In this document: positions 617 to 18,632 of the stretch, piece after piece
How positions within the stretch are numbered: position 1 is the stretch's first letter
Layout of the letters: each line of letters opens with the position of its first letter
Assembly (NCBI GenBank): GCA_021798115.1
Contig: JAJZYM010000002.1
Location: forward strand, 78,872 to 111,058
Reading direction: 5' to 3'
From: Pseudomonadota bacterium
Lineage (GTDB): Bacteria > Pseudomonadota > Gammaproteobacteria > JAKAQQ01
Length of the DNA stretch: 32,187 bases
The notes under the pieces: model-generated
Seen by the model: only the letters and a program-made list of their open reading frames with translations
Databases searched by the model: none
Told to the model about the DNA's origin: nothing
Translations under genes and position numbers: made by a program

Positions 617-1194
617 CGACGGGCGGGCGATCCTTCCCGCGTCTTCGGACACTTCTTGGCGTCGTGTTCCTCGCAACCGTCTGCGGCCACGCGCGCGCTG
701 CCGTTTGGGTAGGGGGGAGTCCCCAAGGACGTCTTGGTGTGATCCTCCACTATCAGGGGAGCGCCGAGCAGGGACGTTTCACACGTTTTCGGGTCCGTCT
801 CGTCACCCGTCACGGGATCCCCGAGACCCTCCGTGTCGTCGTGAAGACCGCTTCGTTCACCTTGGCGAGTGCCCTCCTGGACAGCGCGTCGCGCGGCCGC
901 GCGTGGTTCGACGCCCGACGTGACCCCAAAGCGGTCTACACCGCAGAGCATCTGCGGGCCGTTCCCGGTGGGGTTCGGGCCGATGGAGTTCTTACGCTCA
1001 AAGGGATCGCCCGTCCCCTCGATTTCGTCATGAACGTTGCGCAAGCGGGCCCCCGTGCGCTCGTGCTTCGCGGTCGGGCCGTCGTTTTGCGTCTCCGTTA
1101 CCGGATCGGAACCGGAGCCTGGTCCAAGACCGATCTCATCGGCAACCGCGTCGATCTCGTCTTTCGTGTCCCGCTTGTTCGGGCGGGACGCTGA
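613..1194 (+). CDS. Secreted YceI-family (polyisoprenoid-binding) protein
   Basis: A periplasmic lipocalin-like YceI domain protein of 193 residues. The family binds polyisoprenoids such as quinone-like lipids in a beta-barrel. Residues 10-30 form a signal peptide (hydrophobic LLGVVFLATV core, cleavage near HARA). The mature part has the family pattern, notably WFDARRDPKAVYTA followed by LTLKGIARPLDF, the equivalent of the usual G-x-L-T-l-x-G-v-x-x-P segment. The ATG at 613 is chosen because it overlaps the cytochrome b561 stop by four bases and begins a clean signal peptide. A longer reading of the frame from 100 would put about 170 unrelated residues in front and is rejected. It is likely co-expressed with the cytochrome and may present an isoprenoid or quinone to it (inference). 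Confidence 0.9.
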   Translation: MTTGGRSFPRLRTLLGVVFLATVCGHARAAVWVGGSPQGRLGVILHYQGSAEQGRFTRFRVRLVTRHGIPETLRVVVKTASFTLASALLDSASRGRAWFDARRDPKAVYTAEHLRAVPGGVRADGVLTLKGIARPLDFVMNVAQAGPRALVLRGRAVVLRLRYRIGTGAWSKTDLIGNRVDLVFRVPLVRAGR

Positions 1195-17728: not shown

Positions 17729-17734
17729 TATAAT
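17729..17734 (+). promoter_or_regulatory. Perfect TATAAT -10 of the rpsF operon
   Basis: TATAAT at 17729-17734 places the transcript start near 17741, about 105 bases before rpsF. The -35 region is GC-rich and poor. The stretch 17461-17728 upstream shows one CGTCTA-GCT-TAGACG dyad (17521-17535) and no gene. Confidence 0.65.
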
Positions 17735-17752
17735 CCTCCACGTTCCGTGTGG

Positions 17753-17791
17753 GTCTCGACCCCGGGAACGGACGGCTCCGGCCGTCGAGAC
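17753..17791 (+). ncRNA. S6:S18-binding leader motif (candidate autoregulatory RNA)
   Basis: GTCTCGAC (17753-17760) pairs perfectly with GTCGAGAC (17784-17791). Inside, a 5' bulge starting CCCG is followed by GG/CC pairs and an apical CGGA-CGGC-TCCG hairpin (17769-17780). An asymmetric 5' bulge with CCG above a long stem is the hallmark I know for the mRNA site bound by the S6:S18 complex, which mimics the 16S rRNA site. It lies in the rpsF leader, upstream of both rpsF and rpsR, as expected for feedback control. Confidence 0.6.
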
Positions 17792-17806
17792 GCCTTGCCT
17801 CACCGC

Positions 17807-17825
17807 CCTCCGCGGGAGGCCTTTT
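17807..17825 (+). terminator. Attenuator-like hairpin before rpsF
   Basis: CCTCC-GCG-GGAGG is followed by CCTTTT. It lies between the S6:S18 motif and the rpsF ribosome binding site (AGAGG near 17831). It is short, with few U residues, so attenuation is only a possibility. Confidence 0.35.
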
Positions 17826-17846
17826 GTCCAAGAGGTTCCAAGCGCG

Positions 17847-18362
17847 ATGCGCCACTACGAAGTCGTTTTTCTCGCCCACCCCGACCAGAGCGAACAGGTT
17901 CCCGGCATGCTCCAGCGCTACCGGAGCCTGGTCGAGAACGGATCGGGGATCGTCCACCGCTGCGAGGACTGGGGGCGACGCCAGCTGGCCTACAGCATCA
18001 ACAAACTGCACAAGGCCCACTACGCGCTCCTCAACATCGAGTGCGACGAGCCCACCCTGAAAGCCCTTGAGGAAGCCTTTCGCTTCAACGATGCGGTTCT
18101 TCGTCACCTCATCATCCACCGCTCGCAGCCCATCACTGCGATCTCTCCGCTCATGCGTGACCGTCAAGAGAAAGACGCGCGGGAGCGCGAACAGCAACGC
18201 ATCGCCGCCGAGCGGGCGGCGGCGGGAGCAACAGGGGACGAAGAGGAGACCGCCCGCGCAGAGAACGACGCCGAGGCCGACGACCCGGACCGCGACGACG
18301 ACTCTTCCGAGGAAGTGCTCGTCGGGGATGATGAGACTTCTGCGTCCGACGACGCCTCCTGA
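17847..18362 (+). CDS. rpsF: 30S ribosomal protein bS6
   Basis: Small-subunit protein S6, which binds 16S rRNA helix 22-23 as a heterodimer with S18. The conserved core is residues 1-95: [19 protein letters not shown], then [20 protein letters not shown], then [10 protein letters not shown] and [14 protein letters not shown]. Residues about 105-171 form a long charged tail, first Arg/Glu/Ala-rich and then almost entirely Asp/Glu/Ser. It is longer than the tail of E. coli S6 (total 131-135 residues), which RimK extends with glutamates. The operon begins here with its own promoter and leader, and rpsR follows after 27 bases. Confidence 0.98.
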
Positions 18363-18389: not shown

Positions 18390-18632
18390 ATGCCGCCCCG
18401 TTTCCCCGCCCGCCGCCGCCGCATCCAGCCCGTCAGCAGCGAAGCCGTCGACGGTTACGTCGACTACAAGGATCTCGAGACGCTCCGCGCCTTTCTCGCC
18501 GAGAGCGGCCGCATCATTCCCGCCCGCCTGAGCGGTCTCAACAGCCGCCAGCAGCGCGACGTGTCCCGGGCCGTGAAGCGCGCCCGCTACCTGGCGCTTC
18601 TTCCGTACACCGATCGGCATGGGCGTTTCTGA
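18390..18632 (+). CDS. rpsR: 30S ribosomal protein bS18
   Basis: Small-subunit protein S18, partner of S6. The 80 residues contain the conserved [26 protein letters not shown], broken here as VDYKDLETL and [10 protein letters not shown], and the C-terminal [21 protein letters not shown]. The N-terminal Cys found in zinc-binding or C+ forms is missing ([13 protein letters not shown]), so this is a cysteine-free version. A CGGAG ribosome binding site precedes the ATG. The last 14 bases overlap the DUF2232 gene. Confidence 0.98.

Follow-up and report, generated by a model that had tools for sequence, protein, structure and literature searches.

A known S6:S18 translational operator very probably covers the Shine-Dalgarno sequence of rpsF in a gammaproteobacterium

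The operon encoding ribosomal proteins S6 and S18 raises the question of where in its leader the S6:S18 complex would bind, and whether such binding would act on translation or on early termination of transcription. The first-pass annotation of this locus had proposed that a perfect 8-base stem with a CCCG bulge is the S6:S18 site, that the GC hairpin behind it is attenuator-like, and that the two may couple protein binding to early termination; an Rfam S6:S18 search and a look at the leaders of close relatives were suggested as checks. In the window, by which we mean the whole stretch of 32,187 nucleotides that was analysed, the gene order is rpsF (S6), rpsR (S18), a long ORF, rplI (L9) and dnaB, and Pfam gave no match for the long ORF between rpsR and rplI. 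The features of the locus that are relevant for the leader, which spans from about 17741 (after TATAAT) to the start codon, are the following.

17729 to 17734, plus strand: putative -10 box TATAAT of the rpsF operon promoter, read from the sequence; TATAATCC is invariant in three congeners.
17741 to 17770, plus strand: hairpin A, where the transcript presumably has its 5' end, which takes in the 5' arm of the 8-bp stem; pair probabilities mostly above 0.8.
17771 to 17786, plus strand: hairpin B, GACGGC-TCCG-GCCGTC, which takes in the 3' arm of the 8-bp stem; pair probability above 0.97.
17753 to 17791, plus strand: nominated S6:S18 stem (17753-17760 with 17784-17791), whose letters are present and whose structure is unsupported, as judged from pairing probability, chance level and congener L003.
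17847 to 18362, plus strand: rpsF, ribosomal protein S6; Pfam PF01250, ATG at 17847.
18390 to 18632, plus strand: rpsR, ribosomal protein S18; Pfam PF01084, residues compared with those of E. coli.

Scanning for consensus promoters gave no complete -35/-10 pair upstream of rpsF, and it is from the position of the TATAAT that we infer a transcript start near 17741. The S6 protein has 171 amino acids here versus 131 in E. coli and ends in a long acidic C-terminal tail (18200-18359), and its interface loop reads RQLAYS instead of RQLAYP.

The rpsF leader of E. coli is recognized by the Rfam model RF02893 (RpsF_leader) with 110 bits. This model made no call on the window even at E <=10, its gathering score was not reached, and no credible Rfam match came up in the rpsF leader at the gathering threshold or at permissive ones; the weak Rfam matches to ZMP-ZTP, isrD and anti-hemB fell far under their cut-offs and were discarded. 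However, RF02893 also placed none of 56 relatives above its cut-off, though most of them carry the element, and the miss in the window is therefore a limit of the model and not a defining biological feature. RF02893 thus appears to be too narrow, and for this reason we built our own covariance model from 35 beta- and gammaproteobacterial rpsF leaders, from which the whole family of the window was left out. The held-out model found a single site in the window, and a single one in the 1.88 Mb genome, at 17793-17835, with 38.5 bits and E values of 3.7e-7 (window) and 2.2e-5 (genome). It also matched the two congeners (37.2 and 35.8 bits) and, at E <=0.05, 92 of 100 rpsF loci. The leader therefore does contain an S6:S18 site, as the first-pass annotation had it, but downstream of the stem nominated there, in the very hairpin that the annotation had described as attenuator-like. 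The parts of the site are listed below.

17793 to 17796, plus strand: CCUU, 5' half of the outer stem (outer part of H1), whose partner is the Shine-Dalgarno GAGG at 17832-17835, from the covariance-model alignment.
17797 to 17801, plus strand: GCCUC, 5' arm of the inner H1 stem, whose partner is GAGGC at 17816-17820; probability 0.85-0.99 and strong covariation.
17802 to 17805, plus strand: A-CCG, the bulged A and the conserved CC that is read by S18 in E. coli; aligned with ACCG in most beta- and gammaproteobacterial leaders.
17803 to 17815, plus strand: apical stem H2, CCGC (17803-17806) with GCGG (17812-17815) and the loop CCTCC (17807-17811); probability 0.99 and covarying pairs.
17816 to 17820, plus strand: GAGGC, 3' arm of the inner H1 stem, from the model alignment and the pair probability.
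17822 to 17825, plus strand: TTTT, the proposed terminator U-run; the two congeners have TTT here, and most other leaders have no such run.
17830 to 17835, plus strand: Shine-Dalgarno AAGAGG, from the sequence, in the AAGGAG column of the relatives.

The site, CCTTGCCTCACCGCCCTCCGCGGGAGGC...AAGAGG at 17793-17835, lies in the 5' untranslated region just before rpsF, whose operon also includes rpsR, and has the layout CCUU-GCCUC-A-CCGC-loop-GCGG-GAGGC...GAGG, in which the final GAGG is the Shine-Dalgarno. This agrees with the consensus before the start codon in the rpsF leaders of 110 loci, CTCCTTGCCTCACCG - loop - CGGGAGGC - AAYCCGTAAGGAG - ATG, and the window and both congeners have the exact ACCG consensus and invariant stems. 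In the unfitted alignment of the 35 leaders, 95.2% of the cells are paired and eight pairs are changed on both sides; the covariation score is 0.354, compared with 0.199 when shuffled and at most 0.155 when slid. The larger, fitted alignment (92 leaders) agrees in showing strong stem covariation. The conserved H1/H2 stem-loop architecture with its covariation is thus found in the window, which was itself left out of the model, and the GC hairpin at 17797-17820 has a fold z of -3.1 on its own. The Shine-Dalgarno sequence lies inside the structure, and the outer stem CCUU/GAGG that contains it has a pairing probability of about 0.44. In the window this stem is short, having four pairs, one of them G-U, versus six pairs in many relatives; such shortness is typical of the genus, and pairing in the homologous stem CTCCTT/AAGGAG reaches about 91% across the 92 leaders. 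A local hairpin CCUUUU/AAGAGG as an alternative cover of the Shine-Dalgarno was rejected, having a probability of only about 0.15. We are therefore highly confident that 17793-17835 in the rpsF-rpsR leader is a translational operator of the known rpsF-leader (S6:S18) family, and an ordinary member of it. This places a clear S6:S18 operator in a lineage beyond the reach of the current Rfam model.

The S6:S18 motif has reportedly been treated in Matelska 2013, Fu 2014 and Babina 2015. Its published description places a CCG in a bulge (PMC10931766). The conserved element is present here as ACCG at 17802-17805, but its CC is predicted to be paired and not to lie in an open bulge. In most beta- and gammaproteobacterial leaders, as in the window, pairing of the CC with GG extends the apical stem, beside a single bulged A (alignment columns 16-19 with 36-39, corresponding to 17803-17806 with 17812-17815), and E. 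coli is the exception to this within the 35-leader alignment. Changes of the second C go along with changes of its partner (CG 68, UA 8, AU 4 and GC 1 in the fitted alignment; CG 30 and UA 4 in the unfitted one). These alignments suggest that in most beta- and gammaproteobacteria the unbound RNA already has the S18-read CC in base pairs, next to a single bulged A. The E. coli leader described by RF02893 is otherwise alike in its place before rpsF, in the proteins of the operon and in the order of its parts: an anti-Shine-Dalgarno half, a GCCUC stem, a CC element, an apical stem, GAGGC and the Shine-Dalgarno. It pairs GUUCCUU with the Shine-Dalgarno in its outer stem and has the inner stem GCCUCC/GGAGGC, whereas in the window, which RF02893 does not call, the outer stem is shorter, the CC is predicted to be Watson-Crick paired and the A alone is bulged, the internal loop of E. 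coli being larger.

In E. coli, an rpsF-lacZ fusion is translationally repressed fourfold by S6:S18 while the reporter mRNA level is unchanged; this repression is lost or nearly lost on mutation of the stem that pairs with the Shine-Dalgarno or of the two conserved cytosines, and it is reduced by the S18 substitutions K60A and R63A (PMC4647458). In the S6:S18 site of 16S rRNA (around C719-C720, helices 22-23a) a CC is likewise contacted by S18 K60/R63 (PMC4647458). The two RNAs share this S18-contacted CC pair, although one is rRNA and the element of the window is mRNA; a search of the assembly with a 20-base 16S pattern gave no match. At the positions of E. coli K60, R61 and R63, the S18 encoded in the window has the same residues, reading KRAR. 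By this analogy, S6:S18 in excess over its 16S rRNA site would bind the operator hairpin, S18 would read the CC beside the bulged A, the outer stem CCUU/GAGG would be stabilised, and the hidden Shine-Dalgarno would lead to repression of S6 and, by coupling, of the downstream genes. The evidence obtained here consists of homology, conservation of the structure, its position over the Shine-Dalgarno and the conserved S18 contact residues; binding and translational repression in this organism would be expected from what is known of E. coli and B. subtilis.

In a different account, S6:S18 would bind at the 8-bp stem with its CCCG bulge and the hairpin behind it would be a terminator, so that binding leads to early termination. 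The letters behind this proposal had been read correctly: GTCTCGAC at 17753-17760 is fully complementary to GTCGAGAC at 17784-17791, CCCCGGG follows the 5' arm, and the GC hairpin is followed by CCTTTT, ending at 17825. However, perfect 8-bp stems closing a loop of 3-30 also turned up in 91 of 1000 leader sequences after simple dinucleotide shuffling, and 56 of the 606 stretches of 106 nt taken from the window held one (about 9%), which is the chance level. Its pairing probability in the full leader is about 0.02, because the same bases prefer the hairpins at 17741-17770 and 17771-17786, even though forcing the stem costs merely about 2.7 kcal/mol. The comparison within the genus covers three members including the window, with one informative sequence (L003, from genome G002), and in this divergent congener the stem is disrupted, whereas hairpin B, which competes with it, stays paired by compensatory changes at two pairs (AT to GC, CG to TA). 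The stem thus fails the check in close relatives that the first-pass annotation had set as its refutation. With the held-out model placing the site elsewhere, the account is largely refuted, and we give it hardly any credence. A conserved switch between the stem and hairpins A and B is also unlikely, because L003 cannot form the stem. In a more modest version, confined to this one species, S6:S18 would bind the downstream hairpin, which would also act as a weak terminator; this version may draw on the four Ts at 17822-17825 and on the differing mechanisms that other ribosomal protein leader sites can use across bacteria (PMC4647458). The L10(L12)4 leader of B. subtilis, which uses transcription attenuation (PMC4538822), is also a leader RNA ahead of a ribosomal protein operon, but the window differs from it in lacking a conserved terminator. 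A stable hairpin followed by a U-tract was not conserved in the relatives, the run being reduced to three Ts in the congeners, and the terminator scan was near chance, with one terminator-like match against 0.4 +/- 0.5 expected in shuffles. Attenuation was rejected because the T-run is not conserved, and the unchanged E. coli reporter mRNA also speaks against a coupling of binding to early termination; even the modest version is thus very improbable. Without comparative data, a neighbouring hairpin can pass for an operator, and an operator for a terminator.

The translational operator at 17793-17835 might also be thought to have kept its structure and lost its response to S6:S18, so that the hairpin hides the Shine-Dalgarno constitutively, as may hold in sister genera that retain the stem without the A-CC and so show that the stem can exist without the S18 determinant. 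The exact ACCG, the invariant stems of the window and both congeners and the S18 equivalents of K60 and R63 all argue against this for the window, and we consider it unlikely, albeit slightly less so than the accounts involving termination. The leaders L004-L007, from four genomes of the genera g2 and g3 of the window's family, keep the hairpin and an anti-Shine-Dalgarno stem that is perfect or contains G-U, and have neither the bulged A nor the CC, while their S18 keeps K60/R63. We tentatively consider it possible, at somewhat less than even chances, that two operator states exist in one family, such that g1, the genus of the window, keeps A-CCG, and g2 and g3 have lost the bases read by S18 but neither the hairpin nor the anti-Shine-Dalgarno stem. 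Judged from the leader sequences, the absence of A-CC may be a natural loss of the feedback determinant. If true, this would be a case in which protein feedback is lost with the RNA scaffold retained, or in which the leader has switched to another signal, and the leaders without A-CC are natural test cases. Some other members of the class (e.g., L011 and L012) have leaders that look like L004-L007.

Hairpins A and B lie outside the S6:S18 site and plausibly serve in protection of the 5' end. Folding places a hairpin at the position of hairpin A in both congeners and in four sister-genus leaders despite their differing sequences. At least one hairpin folds in the region corresponding to 17741-17786 in the six other family members checked, whose sequences differ. 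Upstream of the rpsF leader of congener L003, on the strand opposite to rpsF, a fluoride riboswitch is present at 822-883 (plus strand; Rfam RF01734, 50.1 bits).
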